Of a stretch of DNA of 64,000 bases, positions 7,584 through 51,342 are shown piece by piece. Position numbers and translations under genes: made by a program. Below the pieces are notes generated by a model. That model was given only the letters and a program-made list of their open reading frames with translations. It was not told the origin of the DNA and ran no database searches. The stretch covers positions 62,001 to 126,000 of the forward strand of contig NZ_AUWQ01000001.1 of NCBI RefSeq assembly GCF_000455205.1. Direction: 5' to 3'. Source of the DNA: Mycobacterium sp. UM_CSW (GTDB lineage: Bacteria > Actinomycetota > Actinomycetes > Mycobacteriales > Mycobacteriaceae). The stretch's first letter is position 1, and each line of letters begins with the position of its first letter.

Positions 7584-7977
7584 AGTTTGTAAAAATAATC
7601 CGCTGATCGCTCGTACACACCCGCTTTCGGAAACCCCGTGTCGGGCGAGTTGACGTCGCGCAGGTACGAGCGCGAAGGAAATGTTGGCCGAGCCTTCTAT
7701 TAGACAAATGCACAATTGTTCGCGCTCGAATAGTTCTCGAGGACTTGTGGCTGGTCTCGGCCGTTTCGGTGGCGTGTCTTGCGGGTCGCAGACGGCGACG
7801 CGGCAATTGCGTTTCACCCGAACGGGTTTGCTGAAGTCGAGCAACGTACCGCAACTTTCTTAAACGTCTTGCTGGCGAAAATTCATAACTGAAAACGACC
7901 ATTTCGGTGAACTCTAGTTCACTGACAAGCGAAACGTCGTGCTCGTGCACCGGAGCGATTGGCTCTAGGCTGCGGCC
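7584..7977. other. Long intergenic region between divergent TetR and membrane-protein genes
   Basis: 394 bases without a credible gene; short frames here lack codon bias. It is visibly richer in A+T than its surroundings. It holds a perfect 7-2-7 palindrome at 7907-7922, a 9-base inverted pair CGCTCGTAC (7608-7616) with GTACGAGCG (7664-7672), and ACAATTGT near 7713. It probably carries the promoters of both flanking genes. Confidence 0.5.
7907..7922. promoter_or_regulatory. Perfect palindrome, candidate TetR operator
   Basis: GTGAACT-CT-AGTTCAC is a perfect 7-base inverted repeat with a 2-base centre, the size typical of TetR-family operators. It lies about 55 bases upstream of the 7978 start and 324 bases from the TetR at 7583, so it would act most directly on the membrane protein and oxidoreductase pair. 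Assignment to a specific regulator is inference. Confidence 0.5.
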
Positions 7978-8373: not shown

Positions 8374-9197
8374 GAATCGGCGTCCTGACGTTCATCACCG
8401 ACGAAGGAATCGGCCCGGTCGAGCTGGGCCGGGCACTCGAGGAGCGCGGGTTTGCCTCCCTGTTCTTGGCGGAGCACTCGCACATCCCCGTCGACGCCAA
8501 GACGCCGTATCCGATGGGCGGCCCGATTCCGCGGAAGTACTACCGGACGTTCGATCCGTTCGTGGCGTTGACCGCCGCGGCCGTCGCGACCGAGCAACTC
8601 GTCCTGGGCACCGGGATCGCGTTGGTCCCGCAGCGAGACCCGATCCTGACGGCCAAGGAGGTGGTCTCGCTCGACCTGGTGTCGCAGGGGCGATTCCGCT
8701 TTGGTGTGGGCGTGGGCTGGCTGCGCGAGGAGATCGCCAACCATGGCGTCGATCCTGGTGTGCGCGGCCGCACGGCGGACGAGCGGCTGGACGCGATGAT
8801 CGAGATCTGGACGCGGGAAAAGGCTGAGTTCCACGGCGAATTCGTGAACTTCGATGCGATCTACAGCTGGCCCAAGCCGCTGACGAAGCCGTATCCGCCG
8901 CTGTACGTGGGCGGCGGGTCGGGGGCTTTCAAGCGCATCGCCCGGCTCAACGCCGGCTGGCTCGCCATGAGCGGGTCGGCGGACGCCCTGTCGGGTCAGC
9001 TGGAGGAGCTGCGCGCCATTGCCGGGCACGACGTCCCGGTGATCAACATGCACATGGGGAAGCACACGGCGCAAGCGCTCGAGGGTTACCCGCCGCTGGG
9101 CGTCGAGCAGGTTTTGGTGGAGCTGGCCACCGAGCCGCGCGACGAGACGCTGCGGCGTTTGGATGAGCTGCAGGCCGAGTTCGCGCAATTGGCGTAA
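8370..9197 (+). CDS. LLM-class F420-dependent oxidoreductase
   Basis: 275 residues. The (beta/alpha)8 luciferase-like fold is indicated by MRIGVLTFITDEGIGPVELG at the start, FLAEHSHIP, the GTGIALVPQRDPI segment, FGVGVGWLREEIANHGVD and YVGGGSGAFKRIARLNAGW. In mycobacteria such proteins usually use reduced F420 to reduce or oxidise small organic molecules; the substrate is not evident. It is translationally coupled to the upstream membrane protein and ends 20 bases before a convergent flavin monooxygenase gene. Confidence 0.88.
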   Translation: MRIGVLTFITDEGIGPVELGRALEERGFASLFLAEHSHIPVDAKTPYPMGGPIPRKYYRTFDPFVALTAAAVATEQLVLGTGIALVPQRDPILTAKEVVSLDLVSQGRFRFGVGVGWLREEIANHGVDPGVRGRTADERLDAMIEIWTREKAEFHGEFVNFDAIYSWPKPLTKPYPPLYVGGGSGAFKRIARLNAGWLAMSGSADALSGQLEELRAIAGHDVPVINMHMGKHTAQALEGYPPLGVEQVLVELATEPRDETLRRLDELQAEFAQLA

Positions 9198-9217
9198 ACC
9201 ATTGCCGGGCAGGGGAT

Positions 9218-10708
9218 CTATCGGACCAGGGCCGCTTCCACGAGCGACCAGTAGTTGCGTTCCCGCTCGGTCAGCACGTTCGATGTGATCGCACCGAAGG
9301 TGGCGGCGTCGCGCGCGAACCGGGTCGGCGCGTCGGGCAACGCGTCCGGGCCTTGGAGCCGGAAACAACTCGGCGCCAGGGGACCGAACAGCAGGGCGCG
9401 CCGCAGCTCCGGCCAGTCATCCGGCTTCGGCTCGACACCAGCGGCCCGGGCGAAGGTCACCGCGACCACGTTCATCCGCGTCTTCTGCGACGTCCCTCGC
9501 CGCGAGCGGTAGGCCTTGATCGCCGACCGCTGGTCGGTCTCGGTGGGCGAGGGGATGGTGCCGCCCCATGTGTACGCGATCCACCTGGCTTGAAGTTCAA
9601 GCGGCACAAAGTATCCGCCCGACTGATCCCACATGCCCACGAAGGCCAGCCCCGGAAGGTCGGGATGGAAGGTGTAGCGGTCGGCGTCCAGGTGCACCGA
9701 GTCCAGGTCGAGGACGCGCCGGATGTCTTCCCCGAGGAATGGCATCGAAAGACTGAACCCGGTGCCGAACACGATCCCGTCGAATTCCTCGGTGCGGCCG
9801 TCGGCGAACGCCACCGTCGTGCCCGCGACCGACGCCATCCACGGGCGCACCGAGATCCGGCCCTCGGCCACCAGCGGCAGGTAGTGCTGGTTGAGGGTGA
9901 GGCCGGCCACCGAGATGGAAGGGTCCGGCGCCGGCGCGCCGTACTGCTGGGGGCTCCCTCCCGCCGCGACCACCAGCTCCTTGAGTTGCCGGTCGATCTC
10001 GGCCGGCTGCAGCGTCTCGTCGGCCAGCGTTCCGTACCGCGTATAGACCCGGTGATCGGACGGGACGCCGGCGGCGAACTTGGGCAGCACGTACCGCTGG
10101 CGTCGCTGGGTCACCACGACGCGCGCCGCGCCGAGTTGCGCGAGTTCCGTCGCGATCTCGAGCGCGCTGATCGCGCAGCCCGCCACCAGAACGCGCTTAC
10201 CCTGATACGGGGCGGGCCCGCGGTAGTGATATGTCGCGGTCGCTCCGGCCGAGCCGGCGAAGGTCTCGAGCCCAGGCACAGTTGGAATGGCTGCGGCGTG
10301 GAACCTTCCGGTGGCCACCACGACCCGCTCGAAACTTTCCTCCCCGCCGGCATAACGAACGAGCCAGCGGGCGCCGTCTCGCGTGACGAGTTCGACCGGA
10401 GTCCCGAACAGGATGCGTTCGACGAGCCCGAACCTTTCGGCGAAGCGGCGCAAATAGTCGAGAATGGCGCGGTTGGACGGATAGACGAGGCCGGTCTCGT
10501 GCTCGAGGTCGCTGAAGGCCGTCAGGACGCGGCTGCTGTTCGTGTGCATGCTGGGCCATACGCCGCTGCGGCCGTCCAGGCCCGCCCATTGCCCGCCGAG
10601 CACGGGCGAGCGCTCGAAGATCGTCGGCTCGAACCCCTGCGACAGCAGCCAACGCGCCGCGATGAGACCACCCGGTCCCGCCCCGATCACCGCGACGTTT
10701 CCAGCCAT
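9218..10708 (-). CDS. Flavin-containing monooxygenase-like NAD(P)/FAD oxidoreductase
   Basis: 496 residues. The FAD-binding Rossmann motif GAGPGG is at residues 9-14, followed by FERSPVLGGQWAG; the NADPH-binding motif is VAGCAISALEIATELA near residue 190. The usual FMO fingerprint FxGxxxHxxxY is altered to FAGSAGATATYHY, without the His at the standard place. This resembles FMO/Baeyer-Villiger-type enzymes that oxygenate small lipophilic molecules. It is the last gene of a same-strand run (SDR, SDR, CMD, ALDH, FMO) with an 18-base gap after the aldehyde dehydrogenase, which suggests a shared catabolic task. Confidence 0.87.
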   Translation of the reverse strand: MAGNVAVIGAGPGGLIAARWLLSQGFEPTIFERSPVLGGQWAGLDGRSGVWPSMHTNSSRVLTAFSDLEHETGLVYPSNRAILDYLRRFAERFGLVERILFGTPVELVTRDGARWLVRYAGGEESFERVVVATGRFHAAAIPTVPGLETFAGSAGATATYHYRGPAPYQGKRVLVAGCAISALEIATELAQLGAARVVVTQRRQRYVLPKFAAGVPSDHRVYTRYGTLADETLQPAEIDRQLKELVVAAGGSPQQYGAPAPDPSISVAGLTLNQHYLPLVAEGRISVRPWMASVAGTTVAFADGRTEEFDGIVFGTGFSLSMPFLGEDIRRVLDLDSVHLDADRYTFHPDLPGLAFVGMWDQSGGYFVPLELQARWIAYTWGGTIPSPTETDQRSAIKAYRSRRGTSQKTRMNVVAVTFARAAGVEPKPDDWPELRRALLFGPLAPSCFRLQGPDALPDAPTRFARDAATFGAITSNVLTERERNYWSLVEAALVR

Positions 10709-38781: not shown

Positions 38782-40047
38782 GTGGCTCGCTTCCCCAAGC
38801 CCTCGGAGGGCAGCTGGACGCAGCATTACCCGGAACTGGGCACCGGGCCGGTGTCCTACGAAGACTCCATCAGCCCGGAGATCTACGAATTGGAGCGGGC
38901 GGCGATATTCAAACGCGCGTGGCTGAATGTCGGCCGGGTGGAACAGCTTCCGCGTAAGGGCAGCTACTTCACCAAGGAGCTCAAGGTAGCCAACACGTCG
39001 GTCGTTCTGGTGCGCAACGCTTCTGGAGAGGTCAACGCCTTCCACAACATCTGCCGGCACCGTGGCAACAAGCTGGTCTGGAACGACATGCCGCTGGAGG
39101 AGACCAGCGGCGTGTGCCGGCAATTCACCTGCAAGTACCATGCCTGGCGCTACGACCTGGATGGCAACCTGACGTTCGTGCAACAGGAGGAGGAGTTTTT
39201 CAACCTCGACAAGAGCCGCTACGGGCTGGTGCCGGTGCACTGCGACGTCTGGGAGGGCTTCATATTCATCAACTTCGCGCAGGAGCCCGCACAGTCGTTG
39301 CGCGAGTTTCTGGGGCCGATGGTGACGGCGCTAGAGGGCTACCCGTTTGGGAAGCTGACGTCGCGTTGGCACTACAGGTCGCAGGTGAAGGCGAATTGGA
39401 AGCTCTACATGGACGCGTTCCAGGAGTTCTACCATGCGCCGGTGCTGCATGCGAACCAGTCGCCGACCGCCTACTCCAAGGCGGCCGCCGAGGCCGGCTT
39501 CGAGGCCCCGCACTACCGCCTGGACGGTCCGCACCGGCTGGTCAGCACGTCGGGAGTGCGGGCCTGGGAGATGCCGGACGAGATGCGTAAGCCCATCGAC
39601 GACATCTGCCGCAGCGGGCTGTTCGGCCCCTGGGAAAAGCCGGACCTAGGGGAGATGCCGGCGGGGCTCAATCCCGCGAAATGCAATCCGTGGGGCCTGG
39701 ATTCGTTCCAGCTGTTTCCCAACTTCGTCATGCTGTTCTGGGGTCAAGGCTGGTATCTGACCTACCACTACTGGCCGACGTCGTATAACAGCCACGTGTT
39801 CGAGGGGACGTTGTATTTCCCGCAGCCACGCACCCCGCGTGACCGCGTCGCGCAGGAACTCGCGGCGGTGACGTTCAAGGAGTACGGACTGCAGGACGCC
39901 AACACCCTGGAGGCGACCCAAAGCATGATCGAGTCACGGGCGATCGACGAGTTTCTGCTCAACGACCAGGAAATACTGTTGCGCCACCTGCACAAGGAGA
40001 CCGCGGCCTGGATCGATGAGTATCAACGAACCAAGGCAGGAGTGTGA
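38782..40047 (+). CDS. Rieske non-haem iron oxygenase alpha subunit (first paralogue)
   Basis: 421 residues from GTG 38782, chosen for the AGGAGAGG just before it. The Rieske [2Fe-2S] ligands are Cys91, His93, Cys117 and His120 (NICRHRG and CKYHAWRY), with 23 residues between His93 and Cys117, longer than the common 15-17, and an extra Cys112. The catalytic iron ligands are His218 and His223 in DAFQEFYHAPVLH, with a bridging Asp211. It should hydroxylate an aromatic or other cyclic substrate using O2. The next gene overlaps by GTGA and encodes a small helical protein; there is no usual beta subunit. A strong paralogue lies at 43257. Confidence 0.92.
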   Translation: MARFPKPSEGSWTQHYPELGTGPVSYEDSISPEIYELERAAIFKRAWLNVGRVEQLPRKGSYFTKELKVANTSVVLVRNASGEVNAFHNICRHRGNKLVWNDMPLEETSGVCRQFTCKYHAWRYDLDGNLTFVQQEEEFFNLDKSRYGLVPVHCDVWEGFIFINFAQEPAQSLREFLGPMVTALEGYPFGKLTSRWHYRSQVKANWKLYMDAFQEFYHAPVLHANQSPTAYSKAAAEAGFEAPHYRLDGPHRLVSTSGVRAWEMPDEMRKPIDDICRSGLFGPWEKPDLGEMPAGLNPAKCNPWGLDSFQLFPNFVMLFWGQGWYLTYHYWPTSYNSHVFEGTLYFPQPRTPRDRVAQELAAVTFKEYGLQDANTLEATQSMIESRAIDEFLLNDQEILLRHLHKETAAWIDEYQRTKAGV

Positions 40048-40382
40048 ACGCGGTGTCCACCATGCTGCCAACGGAATTCGCCGACCTGGAGCCGTTTGCG
40101 GAGTGGTGCCTGCCCACCGAACCCCAGCGCTACGCCAAACGGCTGGCCAGTTCCATGACCGAGATGAAGGCGTTCTACGACGCGATCATCCCGCGCGCAG
40201 AGGAGGCCTTGGCCTTCTGCGACAAGTTCCCCCTTGACGACTTGCCGGACGACGTCCTCAACCTGATGCACCTGCTGTATTCGATGATCATGGTGTCGTT
40301 TCCGGTGGAGTGCTGGAAGCAACGACGGGTTCCCGATTCCGGTGCTTCCACCCTGGACTGCGTGTTCGAGCCGGTGCCGTGA
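40044..40382 (+). CDS. Small protein linked to the Rieske oxygenase (first paralogue), unknown family
   Basis: 112 residues from GTG 40044, overlapping the Rieske stop by GTGA; GTG 40053 or ATG 40062 could also serve. It is predicted mostly helical, with EWCLPTEPQRYAKRLASSMTEMKAFYDAI, then CDKFPLDDLPDD and LNLMHLLYSMIMVSF. The protein at 44528 shares this layout, including CDKFPLDDLP, LNL, HL and YS plus the terminal EPVP, and is likewise next to a Rieske gene. It is too short and the wrong shape for a SnoaL-like beta subunit. It may be a dedicated subunit or chaperone of these oxygenases. Confidence 0.82.
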   Translation: MNAVSTMLPTEFADLEPFAEWCLPTEPQRYAKRLASSMTEMKAFYDAIIPRAEEALAFCDKFPLDDLPDDVLNLMHLLYSMIMVSFPVECWKQRRVPDSGASTLDCVFEPVP

Positions 40383-41626
40383 CAATTGTCCTTCGGGCAG
40401 CGCGCTGGGCTGACGTCGACGCCGGTCGGGTGCGCTCCCCGGCGGTTGTAGTGATCGACGGGCAGCGCATCAGCGCCGTCAATCCCGAAGGGCCACAGCC
40501 GGATCCGGCCACCGTGGTGGAGCTCGGCGACGTCACACTCCTACCCGGCCTGATGGACATGGAACTCAACCTGCTGATCGGCGGCCCCGGCGGCCCCGAG
40601 GGCCTCCCGGCACCGATGCACGGCGTGCAGGACGATCCGGCGTATCGCACACTCCGGGGCGCGGTGAACGCGCGCACCACGCTGGACGCCGGCTTCACCA
40701 CCGTGCGCAACCTCGGGCTCATGGTCAAGACCGGCGGCTACCTGCTCGACGTCGCGCTGCAGCGTGCCATCGACCAGGGCTGGCACATCGGGCCCCGCAT
40801 CTATCCCGCGGGACATGCCGTCACCCCTTATGGCGGGCACCTGGACCCGACGGTGTTTCAGCGGCTGGCACCCGGGATCATGCCGCTGTCCATCGCCGAG
40901 GGCATCGCCAACGGTGTGCCCGACGTCATCGCCTGCGTCCGCTACCAGATTCGCCACGGCGCCAAGCTGATCAAGGTCTCGGCGTCAGGGGGCGTCATGT
41001 CGCACAGCACCGCTCCGGGCGCCCAGCAGTATTCCGATGCGGAGTTCGCCGCGATCGCCGACGAGGCCCACCGCGCCGGGGTGCGGGTCGCCGCGCACGC
41101 CGTCGGCGACACTGCGATCCAAGCGTGCATTCGCGCCGGCATCGACTGCATCGAACACGGGTTTCTGGCCACCGACGAGACGATCCAGATGATGGTCGAC
41201 CACGGCACCTTCCTGGTTTCCACCACCTATCTGACGGAGGCGATGGCGATCGACCGGATCGCGCCGGAACTTCGGAAGAAAGCCGAGGAAGTCTTTCCCC
41301 GCGCAAAGGCGATGCTGCCCAAAGCAATTGCGGCCGGAGTGCGGATCGCGTGCGGCACCGACGCACCGGCGATCCCGCACGGCCAGAACGCCAAGGAGCT
41401 GGGGGCGCTGGTGGCGCGCGGCATGACCCCCATGCAAGCGATCCGGGCCGCGACGGTCGTGGCGGCCGAACTCGTCGAGGCCGACCACGAGTTGGGCCGG
41501 CTGGCGCCGGGTTACCTCGCCGACATCATCGCCGTACCCGGTGATCCGTCTCAGGACATCGCCAACACGCTGGACGTCTCATTCGTCATGAAGGACGGCC
41601 GGATTTTCAAGGAGCTGGCCGCGTGA
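40379..41626 (+). CDS. Amidohydrolase-superfamily protein lacking the HxH metal motif
   Basis: 415 residues from GTG 40379, overlapping the preceding stop by GTGA. The imidazolonepropionase/prolidase-type layout is clear: TLLPGLMDM, TTLDAGFTTVRNLG, the carboxylated-Lys position in AKLIKVSASGG, VAAHAVGD, IEHGF, and the Asp in CGTDAPAIPHG. The expected HxH after GLMDM is replaced by Glu62-Leu-Asn64, so the alpha-metal site is altered. The remaining ligands (Lys, two His, Asp) are intact, so a mononuclear enzyme is possible. It should hydrolyse a C-N or C-O ring or amide bond in the pathway, if active. Confidence 0.85.
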   Translation: MTIVLRAARWADVDAGRVRSPAVVVIDGQRISAVNPEGPQPDPATVVELGDVTLLPGLMDMELNLLIGGPGGPEGLPAPMHGVQDDPAYRTLRGAVNARTTLDAGFTTVRNLGLMVKTGGYLLDVALQRAIDQGWHIGPRIYPAGHAVTPYGGHLDPTVFQRLAPGIMPLSIAEGIANGVPDVIACVRYQIRHGAKLIKVSASGGVMSHSTAPGAQQYSDAEFAAIADEAHRAGVRVAAHAVGDTAIQACIRAGIDCIEHGFLATDETIQMMVDHGTFLVSTTYLTEAMAIDRIAPELRKKAEEVFPRAKAMLPKAIAAGVRIACGTDAPAIPHGQNAKELGALVARGMTPMQAIRAATVVAAELVEADHELGRLAPGYLADIIAVPGDPSQDIANTLDVSFVMKDGRIFKELAA

Positions 41627-41646
41627 ATCGGGACAAGGAGACCGGC

Positions 41647-42099
41647 ATGGAACTCACCGAAAACCTCCTGTGGTTGCTCAAGCAGGCGTTCTACTTCTCG
41701 CTGACCAGCGTGAACGACGCGATCAGCAGCCACGGTGTCAGCACGGCCCAGATCGGTGTGCTGCGTCAGCTCTCCAACGAACCCGGGCTGTCGGGCGCCG
41801 AACTCGCCCGACGTCTGCTGATCAGCCCGCAGGGTGTTCAACTGGCTCTCACCGCGCTCGAGCGCCGCGGCCTGGTTGAACGCAAGCAGGACCCCCAACA
41901 CAAGCGCATCTTGCAGGCCTATCTCACCGACGAAGGACGCGACGTCGTGGCGAAGGTGCTGGGTGACGCCCTGACCGCACACGCGGAGGTCTTCGGCGTA
42001 CTCAGCGGCGAGGAGCAGGAAACCCTGCGTGAACTGCTCGCAAGGGTGGTCGAAAAGGGCACCGGCCACGAGTTGTTCAAAGACAACATCGAGAGCTGA
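41647..42099 (+). CDS. MarR family regulator of the Rieske cluster
   Basis: 150 residues from ATG 41647, chosen for AAGGAG 6-7 bases upstream; a GTG at 41623 overlapping the amidohydrolase stop is also open. Winged helix-turn-helix: STAQIGVLRQLSNEPGLSGAELARRLLISPQGVQLALTALERRGLVERKQD. It lies inside the catabolic run and between the two control regions that carry the same palindrome (38706 and 42129). It is the likely repressor or activator of the oxygenases; the inducer would be a pathway substrate or intermediate. Confidence 0.9.
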   Translation: MELTENLLWLLKQAFYFSLTSVNDAISSHGVSTAQIGVLRQLSNEPGLSGAELARRLLISPQGVQLALTALERRGLVERKQDPQHKRILQAYLTDEGRDVVAKVLGDALTAHAEVFGVLSGEEQETLRELLARVVEKGTGHELFKDNIES

Positions 42100-42112
42100 T
42101 TCATGTCTCTAG

Positions 42113-42143
42113 TACTTGAGATTAATCGCAAGTAGTTGATACT
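42113..42143. promoter_or_regulatory. Control region of the ferredoxin/second Rieske operon with TACTTG and CAAGTA elements
   Basis: TACTTG (42113-42118) and CAAGTA (42129-42134) form an inverted pair with a 10-base spacer. The 15 bases CAAGTAGTTGATACT (42129-42143) are identical to the reverse complement of the site at 38706-38722. The region lies 11 bases from the ferredoxin ATG and 14 bases after the MarR stop, so the same regulator probably governs both transcription units. Confidence 0.75.
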
Positions 42144-42153
42144 GTGGCGAACG

Positions 42154-42474
42154 ATGCAAGACTCCCGCGCTACGGTGCAGCCGACCGATGCCGACGTCGT
42201 CACAACAGAGGTGACCATCGAGCTCGACCGGTGCACCATCACCGTGACCTACAGTCCCGGCGACACGTTGCTGCAGACGGCCCGCATGGCGGATCTGAGC
42301 CCCCCGTCGTCGTGCGAAGTCGGGAACTGCGGAACGTGTATGGCCCGCTTGACCGAGGGCAGCGCCCGGATGATCAACAACGACGCACTTGAAGATGACG
42401 AGGTGGAGGAGGGCTGGGTGCTGACCTGTCAGGCACTGCCGACTAGCCCCACGGTGCGGGTGGTGTACGAGTGA
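42154..42474 (+). CDS. Plant-type [2Fe-2S] ferredoxin
   Basis: 106 residues from ATG 42154 (an ATG at 42136 is in frame but lies inside the control element). The cluster ligands follow the Cys-x4-Cys-x2-Cys...Cys pattern in SSCEVGNCGTCMARL and LTCQA. It should carry electrons to the Rieske oxygenases. No ferredoxin reductase gene is in the window, so a reductase elsewhere must supply it. Its stop overlaps the SDR start by GTGA. Placement upstream of the second oxygenase and after the first suggests that it serves both. Confidence 0.93.
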   Translation: MQDSRATVQPTDADVVTTEVTIELDRCTITVTYSPGDTLLQTARMADLSPPSSCEVGNCGTCMARLTEGSARMINNDALEDDEVEEGWVLTCQALPTSPTVRVVYE

Positions 42475-43214
42475 ACAGGGTCTGCGTTGTGACCGGGGGC
42501 GCATCTGGCATGGGAGAGTCGACGTGCCACGAGCTGGGCCGGCGCGGCCACCATGTCGCGGTTCTCGACGTCAACGAGCAAGCGGCGCAACGCGTCACCG
42601 AGGATTTGCGTGCGGCGGGGGTGACGGCCATCGGAGTCGGCGCCGACGTCACCGACCGAGGCGCCGTCGAGCAGGCGTTCGCCAAGGTGCGCAGTGAGCT
42701 GGGCCCGGTCTCGATCCTGGTGACGAGCGCGGGCATGTTCGGGCACTCCCCGTTCACCGAGATCACCGTCGAGTCATGGGCCAAGATCATCGACGTCAAC
42801 CTGACGGGCACCTTTCACTGCTGCCAAGTCGCTATTCCCGACATGGTCGCCGCGAAATGGGGCCGGATCGTGATGATCTCGTCGTCAAGTGCCCAGCGTG
42901 GATCGCCGTTCGCCGCCCACTACGCGGCGTCCAAGGGCGCGGTCATCACCCTCACCAAATCGCTGGCCCGCGAATACGCAATGCACGGGATCACCGTCAA
43001 CAACATCCCGCCATCGGGCATCGAAACACCGATGCAGCTCCAGGCGCAGGAGGCGGGATTTGTGAAGTCCAACGAGGAAATCGCCAGGAATATCCCGATG
43101 GGCCATCTGGGCACCGGAGCCGACATCGCCGCGGCGGTCGGGTTTCTGTGTTCCGACGAGGCGGGCTTCATCACCGGTCAGGTGCTGGGCGTCAACGGCG
43201 GAGCGGTGATGTGA
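42471..43214 (+). CDS. Short-chain dehydrogenase/reductase
   Basis: 247 residues from GTG 42471, overlapping the ferredoxin stop. SDR features are intact: VCVVTGGASGMGESTCHELG, ADVTDR, TSAG in the NNAG position, the catalytic Ser/Tyr/Lys in MISSSSAQRG and YAASKGA, and a C-terminal FITGQVLGVNGGAVM. In a ring-hydroxylation pathway it would oxidise a dihydrodiol or alcohol intermediate; that is inferred from position. Start spacing is tight and the run continues to the second Rieske gene after 42 bases. Confidence 0.9.
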   Translation: MNRVCVVTGGASGMGESTCHELGRRGHHVAVLDVNEQAAQRVTEDLRAAGVTAIGVGADVTDRGAVEQAFAKVRSELGPVSILVTSAGMFGHSPFTEITVESWAKIIDVNLTGTFHCCQVAIPDMVAAKWGRIVMISSSSAQRGSPFAAHYAASKGAVITLTKSLAREYAMHGITVNNIPPSGIETPMQLQAQEAGFVKSNEEIARNIPMGHLGTGADIAAAVGFLCSDEAGFITGQVLGVNGGAVM

Positions 43215-43256
43215 CGAGGTTGGTCTTAAAAGCATGGTGACACAGGGAGGTTCACG

Positions 43257-44525
43257 ATGACGCGGTCCGGCAGGCCCTCGGAGGGCTCCTGGACGGAGCA
43301 CTATCCCGAGCTGGGGACCGGCCCCATCTCGTTTCGAGACTCAACATCGCCGGAATTCTTCGAACTGGAACGCGAGGCCGTGTTCAAACGGGCGTGGCTG
43401 AACGTTGCCCGCGTCGAGGAGTTGCCGCGCGTAGGCAGCTATGTCACCAAGGAAATCGAGGTGGCCCGCGCGTCGGTGATTCTGGTCAGGGGCCGCGACG
43501 ATCGCATTCGCGCCTTCTACAACGTCTGCCGCCACCGGGGAAACAAGTTGGTATGGAACGACTTTCCCGGTGAAGCGACACGCGGGACCTGTCGTCAGTT
43601 CACCTGCAAGTACCACGGGTGGCGCTACGGCCTCGACGGTGCGCTGACATTCGTGCAGCAGCCGGAAGAGTTCTTCGACCTCGACGCCGCGGACTACGGA
43701 TTGCGGCCGGTGCATTGCGATGTGTGGAATGGCTTTATCTTCATCAACTTTGATGCCGAACCGCGTCAAAGCCTGCGCGAGTTCTTGGGTCCGATGATCA
43801 CCGGCCTTGATGACTACCCGTTCGGCAAGCTGACCGAGCGCTACGAGTGGGTGGCGCACAACAACAGCAACTGGAAAATCTTCGCCGATGCGTTCCAAGA
43901 GTACTACCACGTGCCGTCGCTGCACCCACAACAGGTGCCGGCGGAGGTGCGCGACCCTAAGTCCGGATTCACCTGTGGGCATTTCCAACTCGACGGCCCG
44001 CACCGGCTCGTGTCGACCGCGGGACGGCGCCGTTGGCTGCTGCCGCCGGAGTTCATGTATCCCATCGAGCGGGCCACCAAGAGCGGCCTCGTCGGCCCGT
44101 GGCGCACACCGGATATCGGGGAGCTCCCGGCCGGCCTCAATCCCGGGGGCATTGAGCCCTGGGGAATCAGCAACTTCCAGATCTTCCCGAACACCGAGAT
44201 ATTGATCTACGGCGGCTGGTATCTCCTGTACCGGTACTGGCCGACTTCGTACAACACCCACCGGTTCGAGGCCTACACCTACTTCCACCCGGCGCGCACC
44301 GTCCGGGAACGCATTGAACACGAAGTCGCCGCGGTGGTGCTGAAGGAGTTCGCGCTGCAGGACGCTGGCATGCTCGGCGGAACGCAGGCTGCACTGGAGT
44401 ACGGCGTTGTCGACGAGTTCCCGCTCAACGACCAGGAGATCCTGGTGCGCCACCTGCACAAGGTCATCGTCGACTGGGTAGAGGCATACCAACGCGAAAA
44501 AGCTCCGGCGCCGGCGGGGGTCTGA
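43257..44525 (+). CDS. Rieske non-haem iron oxygenase alpha subunit (second paralogue)
   Basis: 422 residues, with AGGGAGG before the ATG. It aligns almost without gaps to the paralogue at 38782. The Rieske ligands are again Cys91, His93, Cys117, His120 (CRHRGNKLVW, CKYHGWRY) and the iron ligands His218 and His223 (DAFQEYYHVPSLH), with the same long 23-residue loop and the extra Cys112. Divergence is greatest between about 230 and 300, the likely substrate pocket, so the two probably act on different steps or substrates. It is followed 2 bases later by its own small partner gene. Confidence 0.93.
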   Translation: MTRSGRPSEGSWTEHYPELGTGPISFRDSTSPEFFELEREAVFKRAWLNVARVEELPRVGSYVTKEIEVARASVILVRGRDDRIRAFYNVCRHRGNKLVWNDFPGEATRGTCRQFTCKYHGWRYGLDGALTFVQQPEEFFDLDAADYGLRPVHCDVWNGFIFINFDAEPRQSLREFLGPMITGLDDYPFGKLTERYEWVAHNNSNWKIFADAFQEYYHVPSLHPQQVPAEVRDPKSGFTCGHFQLDGPHRLVSTAGRRRWLLPPEFMYPIERATKSGLVGPWRTPDIGELPAGLNPGGIEPWGISNFQIFPNTEILIYGGWYLLYRYWPTSYNTHRFEAYTYFHPARTVRERIEHEVAAVVLKEFALQDAGMLGGTQAALEYGVVDEFPLNDQEILVRHLHKVIVDWVEAYQREKAPAPAGV

Positions 44526-44527
44526 TC

Positions 44528-44863
44528 ATGCCGGACGCCCTGCTGCCCAGTGCATTCGCCGAGCTGGAGCGCTATGCCCAAATCTGGTGCCTGGCCACCG
44601 AGACCGAGCGCTGGAACGCGCGGGTGGCCAGCACCATGCCCGAAATGCACGAGTTCTACGATGCGTTCTTCCCGCGCCTCGAAGAGGCCATCGACTACTG
44701 CGACAAGTTCCCGCTCGACGACCTACCCGAAGATGCGCTCAACCTGCTCCACCTGATCTACTCGCTGATCATGGTCGCCATGGCGGTCGAGGTCATGCAC
44801 CAGCCCATTCCGACCGATGCCGCCGATGCGGTCATGATCCGCACCGACGAACCGGTCCCGTGA
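44528..44863 (+). CDS. Small protein linked to the Rieske oxygenase (second paralogue), unknown family
   Basis: 111 residues, starting 2 bases after the second Rieske stop. It shares with the protein at 40044 the pattern of W-C-L-(P/A)-T-E, CDKFPLDDLP, LNL, HL, YS, IMV and a terminal EPVP, though overall similarity is moderate. It is mostly helical with no signal peptide, no Cys cluster and no known catalytic motif. Co-duplication with its oxygenase argues for a physical or functional partnership. Confidence 0.82.
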   Translation: MPDALLPSAFAELERYAQIWCLATETERWNARVASTMPEMHEFYDAFFPRLEEAIDYCDKFPLDDLPEDALNLLHLIYSLIMVAMAVEVMHQPIPTDAADAVMIRTDEPVP

Positions 44864-44902: not shown

Positions 44903-45748
44903 ATGAGTCTGCTCACCATCACCAAGCTCGGCGACTCCGTCGGCGCCGAAGTCACCGGCCTGGATCCGGCTCACCTCAGTTCCGACGACCCGGTCGGTGA
45001 AGTCCTCCTGGATGCGTTGGAGCACAACGGTGTTCTGGTCTTTCCGGGGCTCCGGCTGCAACCGGAGGCCCAGGTCGCCTTCTGCCGCCGCCTCGGAGAG
45101 GTCGATCACTCCTCCGACGGGCACCACCCCGTGCCCGGGATATACCCGATCACGCTGGACAAATCGAAGAACTCCTCGGCGGACTATCTTCGGGCGACGT
45201 TTGACTGGCATATCGACGGATGCACCCCGCTAGGGGACGAGTATCCCCAAAAAGCCACCGTCCTTTCGGCCGTGCAGGTCGCCGAATGTGGCGGCGAAAC
45301 CGAATTCGCCAACTCATACGCCGCCTACGACAGGCTGAGCGACGAAGAAAAGCGCCGTCTCGGCACGTTACGTGTCGTGCACTCCCTGGAAGCCTCACAA
45401 CGGAGCGTCACCCCGGATCCGACCCCAGAACAGTTGGCGCGATGGCGATCCCGGCGCACCCACGAGCACCCGTTGGTGTGGACACACCGCAGCGGCCGCA
45501 AGTCACTGGTGCTGGGCGCATCGGCCGACTACGTCGTCGGAATGGATCTCGACGAAGGGCGTGCCCTGTTGGCCGAACTCCTCGAGCGCGCCACCGTGCC
45601 CGCGAACGTCTACAGCCACACCTGGTCGGTCGGGGACACCGTCATCTGGGACAACCGAGGGGTCCTCCATCGCGCGGCTCCTTACGACCCCCGTTCAGCC
45701 CGCGAAATGCTCCGCACGACCGTCCTCGGCGACGAGCCGATCCAGTAA
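44903..45748 (+). CDS. TauD/TfdA-family Fe(II)/2-oxoglutarate-dependent dioxygenase
   Basis: 281 residues. Iron ligands are the HxD in FDWHIDGC and the distal His in NRGVLHRAAPYD; the 2-oxoglutarate-binding Arg is in REMLRTTV. N-terminal VGAEVTGLDPAHLS and HNGVLVFPGLRL are typical for the family. It should oxidise a C-H bond, often releasing a small group (sulfite or an aldehyde), with CO2 and succinate as by-products. It follows the small Rieske partner after 39 bases, so it probably works on a pathway intermediate. Confidence 0.9.
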   Translation: MSLLTITKLGDSVGAEVTGLDPAHLSSDDPVGEVLLDALEHNGVLVFPGLRLQPEAQVAFCRRLGEVDHSSDGHHPVPGIYPITLDKSKNSSADYLRATFDWHIDGCTPLGDEYPQKATVLSAVQVAECGGETEFANSYAAYDRLSDEEKRRLGTLRVVHSLEASQRSVTPDPTPEQLARWRSRRTHEHPLVWTHRSGRKSLVLGASADYVVGMDLDEGRALLAELLERATVPANVYSHTWSVGDTVIWDNRGVLHRAAPYDPRSAREMLRTTVLGDEPIQ

Positions 45749-45760
45749 AGGGAACCGTGA

Positions 45761-46072
45761 ATGACAAAGTCACTACTGTTCGTGGAGAGCAAGCCGGCGT
45801 CAGCGGAACTGGTTGAGGAATACCATCATTGGCACGATCGGGTGCATGTGCCCGAGATGCTGACAATTGATGGATTCGTGTCGGCCCGACGTTGGCAGAC
45901 CGATGGTGACTCGTTCGTCACGCTCTACGAGATCGACACCGACGTCGACGCGGCGCGCACCAACCTACGGGCGGCGTTCGCCGAGGGTCGCATGTCCAAA
46001 CCGGTTGCGGTCGAGACAGAACCGCCACCGGTGATGCGTTACCTGAGTCTGATCAGCGACTCCACTGTCTGA
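45761..46072 (+). CDS. Small EthD/dimeric alpha-beta-barrel-like protein
   Basis: 103 residues, 12 bases after the TauD stop. SLLFVESKPASAELVEEYHHWHDRVHVPEMLTIDGFVSARRWQ and FVTLYEIDTDVDAARTNL fit the ferredoxin-like half-barrel of EthD or related stress/monooxygenase-accessory proteins, with the HDRVHVPEM motif. No metal ligands or cofactor site are apparent. It would be the last gene of the 42.1-46.1 kb unit. It converges on the IclR gene with a 47-base gap. The family assignment is by pattern only. Confidence 0.72.
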   Translation: MTKSLLFVESKPASAELVEEYHHWHDRVHVPEMLTIDGFVSARRWQTDGDSFVTLYEIDTDVDAARTNLRAAFAEGRMSKPVAVETEPPPVMRYLSLISDSTV

Positions 46073-47056: not shown

Positions 47057-47087
47057 TTCTTGCGGTGGCATGCGCGACCATGTGACC

Positions 47088-48026
47088 ATGACCACAATGT
47101 CTGACCTTCGAGGCAAGACCGCCGTCGTAACCGGGGGAGCCGGTGGCATCGGCCAGGCCATGGGCAGGCGCTTCGGCCGGGAGGGCATGAAGGTGGTGCT
47201 GGCCGACGTCCTCGCCGAACCGCTGGACGAGGCAACCCGGGCGCTCGTGGACGAGGGCTTCGAGGCGGTCGGCGTGGTCACCGACGTCACCGACTATTCC
47301 TCGGTCGAGTCGCTGGCCAAGGAGGCGCTCGCTCGCTTCGGCGCGGTGCACGTCGTCTGCAACAACGCCGGCACCGGCGGCGTCTCCGAGGGCTACATGT
47401 GGGAGCACGACCTGGCCGACTGGCGCTGGGGGATCGACGTCAACGTGCTCGGCGTCATCCATGGCATCAAGGCTTTCGCGCCGATCTTGCTCGAGCAGGG
47501 CGACGGGCACGTGGTCAACACCTGCTCGGGCAATGGCGGATTCGCACCGATCGCCCGGGGGGCCATGGGCGGCCCGGCCACGGCGGTCTACCCGATGACC
47601 AAGGCCGCGGTGCTCTGCCTGACCGAAAGCCTCTACACCCACCTGGAGATGACTGGGACGCGGGTGCGGGCGCACGTCCTCTTCCCCGGCGGCTTTCTGA
47701 ACACCGGAATCTGGGAGTCGTGGCGGCACCGCCCGGAGCGCTATGCCGCGACGCAGGAACGCCGCACGCCGGAGGCGACACTGGAAAACGTGGTGGCCCG
47801 CTTCGAGGCCGCCGGCGCACATGTCGAGTTCACCCCGCTCGAGACCGTCGCCGACCTCGTCGTGGAAGGGATTCGGGCGGACCGCTTCTGGATGATGGGG
47901 CCGCCCACGCCGGCCGATCAAGTCGTCAGCAAGAAGGCGGCATCGATCCTCGCCCGCGGCGAACCCGACTACCTGGTTGACGTCCTCGGCCGGAATGCCG
48001 AGAAATCCGAAGGAGGAACACGTTGA
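47088..48026 (+). CDS. Short-chain dehydrogenase/reductase
   Basis: 312 residues from ATG 47088; ATG 47070 and 47097 are alternatives. KTAVVTGGAGGIGQAMGRRF, CNNAG, the catalytic Ser/Tyr/Lys (NTCSGNGGF and YPMTKAAV) identify a classical SDR, longer than usual because of a C-terminal extension from about residue 245 (PADQVVSKKAASILARGEPDYLVDVLGRN). It is the first gene of a unit with the ADC-like protein and two amidohydrolases; its stop overlaps the ADC start by TTGA. Confidence 0.9.
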   Translation: MTTMSDLRGKTAVVTGGAGGIGQAMGRRFGREGMKVVLADVLAEPLDEATRALVDEGFEAVGVVTDVTDYSSVESLAKEALARFGAVHVVCNNAGTGGVSEGYMWEHDLADWRWGIDVNVLGVIHGIKAFAPILLEQGDGHVVNTCSGNGGFAPIARGAMGGPATAVYPMTKAAVLCLTESLYTHLEMTGTRVRAHVLFPGGFLNTGIWESWRHRPERYAATQERRTPEATLENVVARFEAAGAHVEFTPLETVADLVVEGIRADRFWMMGPPTPADQVVSKKAASILARGEPDYLVDVLGRNAEKSEGGTR

Positions 48027-48826
48027 GCGCCAACGAAATTCGCTACGGTCCTCGCGCACCCGAGGCGCAAGTCGATCACGAGATCGATGCCACCAAGGCG
48101 CCCATCGCCACCGAGGCGATCACCGTCACCTACCTCACCGATCCGGAGATCGTCGCGGCCGTGCTGCCCAAGCCGCTGGAGTCGGCGGCCGAACCGCTGG
48201 TGCGGGTCCAGCTTCAGCGCGTCCAAATCGAAGGCAGGCCGCCGTTCGGGTCCGCGGTGTTCTCGGTGACCGCGCGGCACGGCGACCTCGCGGGCGACTA
48301 CCCGCTCTTCATGCCCCAGTCGACCGAACAGTCGGTCACGGGCGGGCGCGAAACATTCGGTGAGCCAAAGAAACTGGCCCACATCGAGGTGGAGCGCGAC
48401 GGCGATCGCGTCGCCGCCGTCGTCGACCGGCTGGGCTATCAGCTCATCCGAGTGAACGGGCGCATCACCGGCGCCGCCGAGCTGCCGCCCGACCAAGTGA
48501 ACACCGAGTTCTACTTCAAGTTCCTGCGTGCGCCCGACGGCAGCGGCATCACCGACCCCCACCTGGTCTACGGCGAATACCACCGCCACTACGAGCTGCT
48601 CGAGAACATCGACGGCACCGTGGAATTGGGCGAGTCACCGCTGGACCCGGTGGCCGACATCGCGATCCGCCAGGTCACGTCGATCACGTGGTGTCGCCGG
48701 CGCACCATCCAGGTGGGGCGGATCGCGTCGCAGGTACCGCAGGAATGGCTGCTGCCGTACGTGCACCAGCGCTACGACGACGTGGCCCTGCTCGCCGCGC
48801 CACGTCCCGAGCCGACGCGGGTATAG
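48023..48826 (+). CDS. Acetoacetate decarboxylase family protein
   Basis: 267 residues from TTG 48023, chosen because AAGGAGGA stands 8 bases upstream and no other start is placed well. The ADC fold is shown by VTYLTDPEIVAAVLPKPLES, FGSAVFSVTARHGDLAGDYPLFMP and GRETFGEPKKLAHIEVERDGD, where the second Lys of PKK is the position of the Schiff-base lysine in acetoacetate decarboxylase. Many mycobacterial members are not true decarboxylases. In this unit it could release CO2 or act on a beta-keto or enol intermediate. Confidence 0.85.
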   Translation: MSANEIRYGPRAPEAQVDHEIDATKAPIATEAITVTYLTDPEIVAAVLPKPLESAAEPLVRVQLQRVQIEGRPPFGSAVFSVTARHGDLAGDYPLFMPQSTEQSVTGGRETFGEPKKLAHIEVERDGDRVAAVVDRLGYQLIRVNGRITGAAELPPDQVNTEFYFKFLRAPDGSGITDPHLVYGEYHRHYELLENIDGTVELGESPLDPVADIAIRQVTSITWCRRRTIQVGRIASQVPQEWLLPYVHQRYDDVALLAAPRPEPTRV

Positions 48827-48832
48827 CGCACC

Positions 48833-50047
48833 ATGGACCGGTACACGGTCATCTCGGCCGACTGCCACGCGGGCGCTGACCTGCTCGACTATCGCCAGTA
48901 CCTCGATCCTCAGTACAGGGACGAATTCGACGGCTGGGCAAAGGCATACGTCAACCCGTTCGGGGACCTCACCGAGGCCGACGCGGAGCGCAATTGGAAC
49001 AGCGCGCGCCGGAACTCGGACCTCGATGCCGAAGGCGTCGCGGGGGAGGTCATCTTCCCCAATACCGTGCCGCCGTTCTTTCCCCAGGCGAGTCTGGCTG
49101 CCCCCCAACCCGTGGACGCCCAAGAGCTCGAGCTGCGCTGGGCAGGCCTGCGTGCGCACAATCGTTGGCTTTCCGACTTCTGCTCGTTGTCGCCGGAGCG
49201 GCGCGCCGGGGTGGGTCAGATCTTGCTCGGGGACCTCGACGAAGCCGTCGCCGAGATAGCTCAGATCGCCGAGTTGGGCCTGCGCGGCGGTGTGCTGCTG
49301 CCCGGGATCCCGCCCGGCGCAGGCATTCCCCAGCTCTACGCCGAGCATTGGGAGCCGCTCTGGGCGGCGTGCGCGGAGGCGGGCCTAGTGGTCAACCACC
49401 ACGGCGGCAACGCCGGACCGAACCCCACGGACGGATGGGGCAGCTCGTTCGCGGTCTGGGTGTATGAGACGCATTGGTTTGCGCACCGGGCGCTCTGGCA
49501 CCTGATCTTCAGCGGCGCACTGGATCGCCATCCGGACCTCACCGTCGTCTTCACCGAGCAGGGTGCCGGGTGGATACCGGCGACCCTGGACTCGCTCGAC
49601 GTGGCGGCGGCCCGTTACGGACGGGCGAATTCGGCGATCGCCCGCTTCGCCGGGCCCACCGCCGGCTCGCTGAGCCTGCGGCCCAGCGAGTTTTGGTCCC
49701 GACAGTGTTACGTAGGCGCCAGTTTCATGCGGCCGGTCGAATGCGCCGAGCGCCACCGGATCGGCGTCGAGAAGATCATGTGGGGCAGCGACTACCCGCA
49801 CATGGAGGGCACCGCTCCATACACCCGAGAAGCGTTGCGCTACACCTTCAGCGGTGTGCCGGCTGACGAGGTGGCGGCCATCGTGGGCGGGAATGCGGCG
49901 GCCGTCTACGGCTTCGACCTCGACGCGTTGGCGCCCCTGGTTGAGCGAATCGGCCCGACCGTGGCAGAGGTTGCCGAGCCTTTGGCGGGCGCGCCCGCCG
50001 ATGCGAGCAGCACCGTCTTCGAGCCCGACCCGATCCGAACCTGGTAA
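48833..50047 (+). CDS. Amidohydrolase (amidohydrolase_2/ACMSD-like), first of a pair
   Basis: 404 residues from ATG 48833, 6 bases after the ADC-like stop. The DxH metal motif is in ISADCHAGADLLD; downstream are GEVIFPN, VNHHGGNAG (His pair) and WGSDYPHMEGTAPY with the conserved Asp. This subgroup covers decarboxylases and hydrolases of the ACMSD type using one zinc or manganese. It is a paralogue of the next gene, with the shared run AHNRWL and SPERRAGV. The two probably perform related steps on ring-cleavage or lactone intermediates. Confidence 0.88.
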   Translation: MDRYTVISADCHAGADLLDYRQYLDPQYRDEFDGWAKAYVNPFGDLTEADAERNWNSARRNSDLDAEGVAGEVIFPNTVPPFFPQASLAAPQPVDAQELELRWAGLRAHNRWLSDFCSLSPERRAGVGQILLGDLDEAVAEIAQIAELGLRGGVLLPGIPPGAGIPQLYAEHWEPLWAACAEAGLVVNHHGGNAGPNPTDGWGSSFAVWVYETHWFAHRALWHLIFSGALDRHPDLTVVFTEQGAGWIPATLDSLDVAAARYGRANSAIARFAGPTAGSLSLRPSEFWSRQCYVGASFMRPVECAERHRIGVEKIMWGSDYPHMEGTAPYTREALRYTFSGVPADEVAAIVGGNAAAVYGFDLDALAPLVERIGPTVAEVAEPLAGAPADASSTVFEPDPIRTW

Positions 50048-50061
50048 GCGAGAGGACCTCC

Positions 50062-51342
50062 ATGAACGACGCTGCGCCCTACCTCATCATCTCCGCGGAC
50101 ACCCACGCCGAGCTTCCCACCGAGCAGTATCGCGAATACATGGACCCGGAATACCGGGAGGACTTCGAGACGTTCCTCGCCGAGAAAACCGCCGCCGCGG
50201 CGCAGGCCGGCGCCTTCATCGACGAGGAGTTCGCCGAGCAGTGGTTCGACGAACACGGAGACGGCATCGCGGGTGGCTGGGACGTCGCCCAGCGCGACCG
50301 CGAACTCGACGGCGATGGCGTCGCCGGTGAGGTCATCTTTCCCGACGCCGACGCCGTCACCGGTGTCGCCGGGGCTCCGTTCGGCGCGGGCCTGGGGCAG
50401 TCCGGCGACCTGGACCCGGGACGTGCGATGGCCGGAGCGCGGGCCCACAACCGCTGGCTGGCCGAGCTGTGCAGCCACAGCCCCGAGCGGCGGGCCGGCG
50501 TCGCGGTCGTGCCGATCCTGGCGGACATCGACGCGGCGGTGGCGGAGATCGCTCGGGCGGCCGAGGCCGGGTTGCGCGGCGGCATCATGATCCCGGTGCT
50601 CTGGGGCGACTATCCGCCCTACCATGACCGGCGTTACGACAAGGTGTGGGCCGCCTGCCAGGACCTGCAGATGCCAGTTCACACCCACGTCGGTGCCGCG
50701 CCCAGTGAGCAGTACGGCCCGCACCTGGGCATCTACACGACCGAGGTGCGCTGGTGGGGAGTGCGGCCGCTGTGGTTCGCGTTGTGGGCCGGCGTGTTCG
50801 AGCGGTTCCCGAACCTGCGCTGGGGGGCTACCGAGTGCGGTGCCTACTGGGCTAATGACCTGTTGTGGCTGATGGACACCCGGTTCATGCGTGAGCACTC
50901 GGCCAAGAAGATGAGCCGTCTCTTGGAGGGCGATCTGACGATGCTGCCCTCGGCGTACTTCGACCGGAACTGCTTTATCGGCGCCACCACGACCGAGCGC
51001 CGGGAGCTGGCCCGTCGCTACGAGATTGGTGTACCAAACATGCTGTGGGGCAACGATTATCCTCACCCGGAAGGAACATGGCCGCATACCCGGGATTGGC
51101 TGCGGCGCTCGTTCTGGGACATTCCAATAGACGAGACGCGACAAATCCTCGGGCTCATCGCAGCCGAGGTATACAACTTCGATGTGGCTGCGCTCGCGGG
51201 TCTGGTCGAGCGCATCGGCCCGACCCCGGCGGACCTGGGTCAGGACGATGCGGTGAGCATCCCCAAGTGGGAGGCGGCCCGACGGGCCGGACGCCACTGG
51301 CTGACGGACGCGGAGCCTCTCCCGGACCTTGTGGAGAGCTGA
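50062..51342 (+). CDS. Amidohydrolase (amidohydrolase_2/ACMSD-like), second of a pair
   Basis: 426 residues from ATG 50062, 14 bases after its paralogue. The metal motif is ISADTHAELP, followed by AHNRWLAELCSHSPERRAGV, VHTHVGAAPSEQYGPH and WGNDYPHPEGTWPH. The HGDGIAGGWD insert near residue 64-75 is not in the first copy. It ends the 47.1-51.3 kb unit and converges on the membrane patatin gene with a 12-base gap. Function as for the first: a metal-dependent hydrolase or decarboxylase, substrate unknown. Confidence 0.88.
   Translation: MNDAAPYLIISADTHAELPTEQYREYMDPEYREDFETFLAEKTAAAAQAGAFIDEEFAEQWFDEHGDGIAGGWDVAQRDRELDGDGVAGEVIFPDADAVTGVAGAPFGAGLGQSGDLDPGRAMAGARAHNRWLAELCSHSPERRAGVAVVPILADIDAAVAEIARAAEAGLRGGIMIPVLWGDYPPYHDRRYDKVWAACQDLQMPVHTHVGAAPSEQYGPHLGIYTTEVRWWGVRPLWFALWAGVFERFPNLRWGATECGAYWANDLLWLMDTRFMREHSAKKMSRLLEGDLTMLPSAYFDRNCFIGATTTERRELARRYEIGVPNMLWGNDYPHPEGTWPHTRDWLRRSFWDIPIDETRQILGLIAAEVYNFDVAALAGLVERIGPTPADLGQDDAVSIPKWEAARRAGRHWLTDAEPLPDLVES

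Follow-up and report, generated by a model that had tools for sequence, protein, structure and literature searches.

A small protein of no recognised family encoded beside one branch of Rieske oxygenase alpha subunits: a candidate third subunit

The beta subunit of Rieske oxygenases has a SnoaL/NTF2-like fold, as in NdoC of naphthalene dioxygenase. Two Rieske alpha subunit genes are present in a 64,000-nucleotide stretch of the Mycobacterium sp. UM_CSW genome (contig NZ_AUWQ01000001.1, positions 62,001 to 126,000; hereafter the window, to which all positions given without a locus refer), and each is followed by a gene for a small protein that resembles a beta subunit in its size and its place beside alpha and, probably, in being non-catalytic and structural. 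The assemblies of Rieske oxygenases are given as alpha3, alpha3beta3, alpha3alpha'3, alpha3alpha3 and related C3 forms in the available portion of a review that tables CntA (carnitine monooxygenase), the solved chain closest to the present alphas by sequence profile, as alpha3, and whose main text, within that portion, uses neither 'accessory' nor 'third subunit' (PMC12445004). The comparisons assembled here make it moderately probable that the small protein is a dedicated, non-catalytic, alpha-specific third subunit ('gamma') of the oxygenase in one branch of the Rieske enzymes. Each small protein would bind its own alpha within the oxygenase, as alpha3gamma3 or, where a beta subunit is also encoded, alpha3beta3gamma3, and would be needed for a stable or active trimer, with alpha retaining all catalytic ligands and the small protein having no catalytic role.

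A preliminary description, made from the letters of the window, had reported that the two alphas are paralogues aligning almost without gaps, that each is followed at a 4-base overlap or a 2-base gap by a protein of about 111 residues, and that the two small proteins share five motifs, all of which is borne out. The alphas are 61% identical in pairwise alignment (257/419, 3 gap positions) and the small proteins 53% identical (57/108, 1 gap position, E 2e-39 as a single comparison), with CDKFPLDDLP, LNL, HL, YS and EPVP common to both. The bases shared by the end of alpha 1 and the GTG start of small 1 at 40044 are GTGA; alternative in-frame starts of small 1 are GTG 40053 and ATG 40062. Small gene 2 is under purifying selection, as judged from the ratio of nonsynonymous to synonymous substitution (dN/dS, Table 1) in 9 pairwise comparisons with mycobacterial relatives. 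The small proteins may be helical, a point on which a crude propensity average bears. A recent local duplication of one module was ruled out as the origin of the pair: both module types occur in many genera, and this genome has a third module at another site, so that the pair is no local novelty of this genome. Behind the third alpha–small module (L012 6050-7625 = G000:C17:22049-23624) come an Amidohydro_1 gene at 7629 and, at 8827-9249, a SnoaL_4 gene, with CMD and Amidohydro_2 genes nearby.

The claims that the small protein belongs to no known family and does not look like a SnoaL-fold beta subunit also stood. Among 23 diverse members of the small family, the two of the window included, neither Pfam (best E 0.045, one member, unrelated family) nor NCBIfam (best E 0.19, one member, unrelated family) gave a credible match, and unlike beta subunits, 0/23 matched SnoaL-type or ring-hydroxylating beta families at E up to 1, while SnoaL-like proteins encoded nearby do match SnoaL models. 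PHROGs gave no match for the two window proteins, and the sequences of the PDB none for small 2 (best E for the family profile 0.37). Four positions are fixed in 53/53 small proteins (W20, R28, R32, L73) and four more are kept in 52/53 (L6, P7, F43, E88). The 25 most conserved positions of the 53 include no Cys and no His, and no Cys of small 2 is shared by more than 31/53 family members; because no Cys or His is conserved, the small protein probably carries no metal or iron-sulfur cluster. The gene is annotated as 'hypothetical protein' in 18 of 20 plasmid records and is without annotation in the other two. A search of the titles and abstract openings of the openly licensed PMC literature found no paper on the small protein, which is weak evidence of absence, and nothing on such a protein occurs in the available parts of PMC10974035 and PMC7907043. 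The dho/ipo indole genes were considered as relatives and ruled out, as other functions are assigned to them in the available part of PMC12538310.

Both window alphas have the Rieske (PF00355) and catalytic (PF00848) domains above cut-off and are Rieske non-heme iron oxygenase alpha subunits. The Rieske ligands C-x-H and C-x2-H (C91, H93, C117 and H120 in the numbering of alpha 2, used for alpha residues throughout) are invariant in 23 alphas of the branch, as are H218, H223 and D369, which we take to be the 2-His-1-Asp iron site; D211, presumably the bridging Asp, is kept at 90% or more. Nine residues are typical of the branch and rare in alphas that lack a small gene (L19, P23, G178, P188, N295, W302, R352, E356, H399) and are candidates for a contact surface, or may instead reflect the active site or ancestry. 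Since the 171-bit profile match to CntA falls below the score range of the branch, no solved structure of the branch is evident.

Seen from the small gene, an alpha stands just upstream on the same strand for 130/130 matches in 76 loci (L012-L087), with a 4-base start/stop overlap in 79 of them when the start codon is chosen by a fixed rule. In the 15 genomes of the window's order found to carry the family, alpha is directly ahead of the small gene in 43/43 cases, a count into which all 43 small genes and 59 of the 129 alpha rows with PF00848 were entered, and in 24 further genomes 27/30 small genes are paired with an alpha. By sample, alpha is beside 22 of 23 small genes in the class of an Acidimicrobiaceae metagenome-assembled genome (MAG), where the remaining small gene is at a contig edge and the 22 include one locus where the contig edge leaves no more than a part of alpha (L171) and one genome whose alpha matches partly and lies 433 bases from the small gene (G733); beside 2/2 in the phylum of a Terriglobia MAG, 1/1 in the single genome that the phylum sample added, 1/1 in the genome of the 'Deltaproteobacteria' MAG sample, and 2/3 in Actinomadura (G153). 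On plasmids, the small gene adjoins an alpha at 17 of 19 distinct places, counting as one place seven lindane-type records with equal match scores (two of them opened) and leaving out Acinetobacter YH12138; at one of the 17, on a plasmid of Sphingomonas sp. NBWT7 (L098 3702-5294), the alpha ahead of the small gene is annotated as two pieces.

The linkage is as close from the alpha side. A profile built from the 23 branch alphas scored 43 alphas of the 15 order genomes at 340-651 bits and the next best at 242 bits (128 scored rows), and these 43 are exactly the alphas that have a small gene. The same genomes encode 129 alphas with PF00848 as against 43 small genes, so that most of their alphas have no small partner, and where a genome has 3-5 branch alphas it also has 3-5 small genes. 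In the 24 further genomes, 30 alphas scored 367-658 bits and the next best 214 bits (33 rows, those of at least 366 bits kept); a small gene is downstream of 27 of the 30, and one of the three unpaired alphas (G745:C240) stops at a contig end. Seven Rieske alphas without small genes are found in one region of each of two related genomes (G130:C1:15217-190662, about 175 kb; G034:C1:1720046-1789618, about 70 kb). Co-occurrence is near-complete in both directions, in support of the partnership inferred in the preliminary description, and a hitch-hiking neighbour with no functional tie to alpha, which the few separated or orphan copies might suggest, is scarcely credible: the survey strongly disfavours it, with the 43/43 and 27/30 counts obtained both ways, several phyla involved, gene order flipped at some loci and purifying selection on the small gene.

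Alphas with a small gene also group together. In the alpha tree, 28 of them form one side of a single branch (support 97/97; recovered in 98% of 200 bootstrap trees), facing 15 alphas without small genes: NdoB, a CntA-type enzyme, 9 of the 10 remaining alphas of the window's genome and 4 further sequences. As no outgroup was included, the small-bearing group is a clade provided that the root lies outside it. Left out of the tree were L134_1738 and L144_own (wrong open reading frames (ORFs); the alpha of L144 itself, C12:173-739, is at a contig end), L138_7440 (not an alpha), the duplicates L132_202 and L134_190, and the two-piece alpha of L098. Alpha and small-protein distances are correlated over 27 pairs (r 0.84, reached by 0/5000 permutations), and the two proteins fall into the same module type in 129/129 scorable pairs (71 and 58), mostly mycobacterial. 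The small gene is ahead of alpha at L089, L093, L140 and in the third EMRT-2 copy, and behind it elsewhere; since the order flips yet alpha and the small gene stay neighbours, adjacency has outlasted rearrangement.

What stays beside the small gene at the annotated plasmid loci is alpha; reductases, ferredoxins and downstream enzymes vary. The small gene sits in catabolic clusters with amidohydrolases, short-chain dehydrogenases (SDRs) and dioxygenases, as would befit a separate pathway enzyme or binding protein acting on the substrate or product of the oxygenase without contacting it; this is very improbable, because the other pathway genes change between loci where alpha stays, and because the small protein has few strictly conserved polar residues (R28, R32 and E88, besides W20). 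A partnership of the small protein with the amidohydrolase, and not with alpha, was rejected because no such amidohydrolase is annotated next to the small gene at these plasmid loci. Electron donors near the modules range from a plant-type ferredoxin in the window to Rieske-type ferredoxins and VanB-type reductases elsewhere. Effectors of the MmoB/DmpM type serve diiron monooxygenases, and a coupling or docking factor of comparable action, binding the oxygenase transiently and steering either the docking of ferredoxin or reductase or the gating of substrate, would account for alpha-specific pairing alongside varied donors; it is an unlikely explanation, as Pfam gives no match to an effector family and as so strong a variation of donors makes a single conserved docking role less natural.

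A chaperone of assembly or maturation, binding nascent alpha to aid its folding, trimerisation or cofactor loading and then leaving, is a possible if rather doubtful alternative. The linkage, overlap and co-divergence data fit it equally, the small protein is short and without conserved ligands, and the presence of a beta subunit would be no obstacle to such a role. One chaperone might serve several alphas, yet each of the 3-5 branch alphas of a genome keeps its own small gene, even where, as in the window, the alphas are still similar, and there is no conserved Cys or His for delivery of a cluster or of iron. With one private small protein per alpha and genes that often overlap, a stoichiometric subunit fits better than a shared chaperone.

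Several observations weigh against a third subunit. Linkage and co-divergence are equally expected of a dedicated chaperone or a pathway partner; the correlation of alpha and small-protein distances is 0.53 among 291 more distant comparisons; and no fusion of alpha to the small protein was noticed, though no search for fusions was made. Small-bearing alphas served as seeds for both the tree and the branch profile, so that the test from the alpha side partly reflects this choice, even if the score gaps are wide nonetheless (340 versus 242 bits; 367 versus 214 bits). Exceptions to the linkage are a branch alpha cut by a contig end with no small gene downstream (G745:C270), an Actinomadura branch alpha separated by about 36 kb from its likely partner, a small gene of a Cupriavidus necator plasmid directly preceded by some 30 codons of a remnant alpha, and the lindane plasmids, where a linC-EthD-small segment ends at IS6100 and the small gene has no alpha. 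The partnership had earlier been suggested to be obligate; near-complete linkage stands, and strictness does not, given the orphan small gene at IS6100, the alpha remnant and the separated pair.

The separated pair, in Actinomadura barringtoniae, consists of a small gene (L159 8226-8561) and an alpha (L195 6252-7496) of the same module type on one contig, which holds three branch alphas and three small genes in all; both members most resemble L012, the third module of the UM_CSW genome (68% identity for alpha and 68% for the small protein). In the lindane degraders (L090 1937-5333, L143 5511-8195), the segment ending at IS6100 comprises linC, a gene for an EthD protein and the small gene; pISP4 also carries, past another IS6100 on the other side, a truncated Rieske alpha fragment of the same branch, with 51% identity to a branch alpha.

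The distribution of the small family is patchy, extending over Actinomycetota, MAGs of Acidobacteriota and Myxococcota, and proteobacterial plasmids. Genomes with the family number at least 15/150 in the window's order, at least 7/296 in its phylum, at least 19/296 in the class of the Acidimicrobiaceae MAG, at least 2/297 in the phylum of the Terriglobia MAG, and at least 1/188 in the phylum of the 'Deltaproteobacteria' MAG (placed in Myxococcota by the tree tool), that one being the MAG itself; because the small protein was scored only among the best 15-30 first-look candidates per genome in these broad surveys, the counts are lower bounds and the absences weak, which also tells against the proposed subunit. 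Every genome sample includes the genome on which it is centred, and many of the genomes counted are MAGs, in which contamination is possible. Pseudomonadota were sampled through plasmids only. Searches of plasmids with five queries found members in Sphingomonas, Sphingobium, Novosphingobium, Cupriavidus, Burkholderia, Variovorax, Acinetobacter, Azospirillum, Paroceanicella and Rhodococcus.

The modules of the window belong to a cluster whose genes are listed in order in Table 1. The source genome is 6.39 Mb in size, and of the genomes scanned, Mycobacterium species are closest to it. Among the best 80 of 97 relatives found in a scan of genome contigs, which correspond to 75 loci, the amidohydrolase is kept in 66 and the other neighbours as given in the table (at least 50% identity over more than half of the query), and these counts are lower bounds because some loci stop at contig ends. 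The plant-type ferredoxin is the probable electron donor of the oxygenase. Beyond the TauD/TfdA-type gene are an ORF of 103 residues (45761-46072), present in 13/75 related loci and matching nothing in Pfam or NCBIfam at E 0.001, and then, at 47070-51342, an SDR gene, an acetoacetate decarboxylase-like gene and two adjoining Amidohydro_2 genes, the first two each present in 2/75 related loci (which extend about 6 kb beyond the small gene).

Table 1. The two alpha–small modules of the window and the genes clustered with them.
Feature	Position	Strand	Evidence and remarks
Rieske oxygenase alpha subunit 1 (Rieske + Ring_hydroxyl_A)	38782..40047	+	PF00848 E 4.4e-34, PF00355 E 5.5e-15; branch profile 651 bits
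Small partner protein 1 (candidate subunit), 112 aa, GTG start	40044..40382	+	4-base overlap with alpha 1 stop; family alignments
Amidohydrolase (Amidohydro_1)	40379..41626	+	66/75 loci; start set at GTG 40379, which would give a 4-base overlap with the stop of small 1
MarR-type regulator	41623..42099	+	62/75 loci
Plant-type [2Fe-2S] ferredoxin	42136..42474	+	PF00111; 62/75 loci
Short-chain dehydrogenase (SDR)	42471..43214	+	69/75 loci
Rieske oxygenase alpha subunit 2	43257..44525	+	PF00848 E 5.3e-50, PF00355 E 5.5e-14; branch profile 627 bits
Small partner protein 2 (candidate subunit), 111 aa	44528..44863	+	2 bases past alpha 2; dN/dS 0.058-0.214
TauD/TfdA-type dioxygenase, conserved next gene	44903..45748	+	70/75 loci

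In the wider sense, we lean slightly towards the view that the small family is an unrecognised kind of Rieske subunit, unrelated in sequence to beta, that would mark a whole branch in several phyla with alpha3gamma3 and alpha3beta3gamma3 assemblies. If so, members of the branch expressed without their small protein would be expected to fail, and an overlooked subunit could explain why such enzymes are possibly hard to express. Catabolic pathways of N-heterocycles and xenobiotics, to judge from the neighbouring genes, would gain an additional component, and a protein now annotated as 'hypothetical protein' would acquire a name and a test.

Compared with the two-subunit enzymes, several loci of the branch encode a SnoaL-like protein in addition to the small protein. 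The SnoaL-like genes beside small genes at L091, L095, L096, L100, L139 and L142 are confirmed by Pfam in 6/6 cases (SnoaL_4 or SnoaL models), and we infer that they encode beta subunits; their coexistence with the small gene disfavours the idea that the small protein has replaced beta, and it is probably no stand-in for it. None of the 15 window neighbours scanned is SnoaL-like, and the annotation of the stretches retrieved for L089, L092, L094, L097 and L099, whose gene tables are incomplete, shows no such gene. With no beta gene found in the scanned part, the window cluster resembles the alpha-only systems of CntA and GbcA. GbcA is the best NCBIfam relative of the branch alphas, which score far below its cut-off, and a CntA-type plasmid locus, so labelled for the carnitine transporter next to it, is annotated with no small gene and falls outside the small-bearing group. 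Other loci of the family include amidohydrolases, SDRs or CoA-linked enzymes. At a locus of Variovorax sp. WDL1 (L100 3706-8791), alpha and the small gene are followed, in this order, by genes for a SnoaL-type protein, a ferredoxin, an alpha/beta hydrolase, a 2,5-dihydroxypyridine dioxygenase and an isochorismatase, which points to a hydroxylated pyridine as the likely substrate there, a substrate not to be carried over to the window. By gene order alone, this locus resembles the four-gene picolinate oxygenase PicB together with the lower picolinate pathway; the oxygenase genes are named picB1B2B3B4 in the available part of their description (PMC10142695), and PicB2 may, on that same order, be a relative of the small protein.

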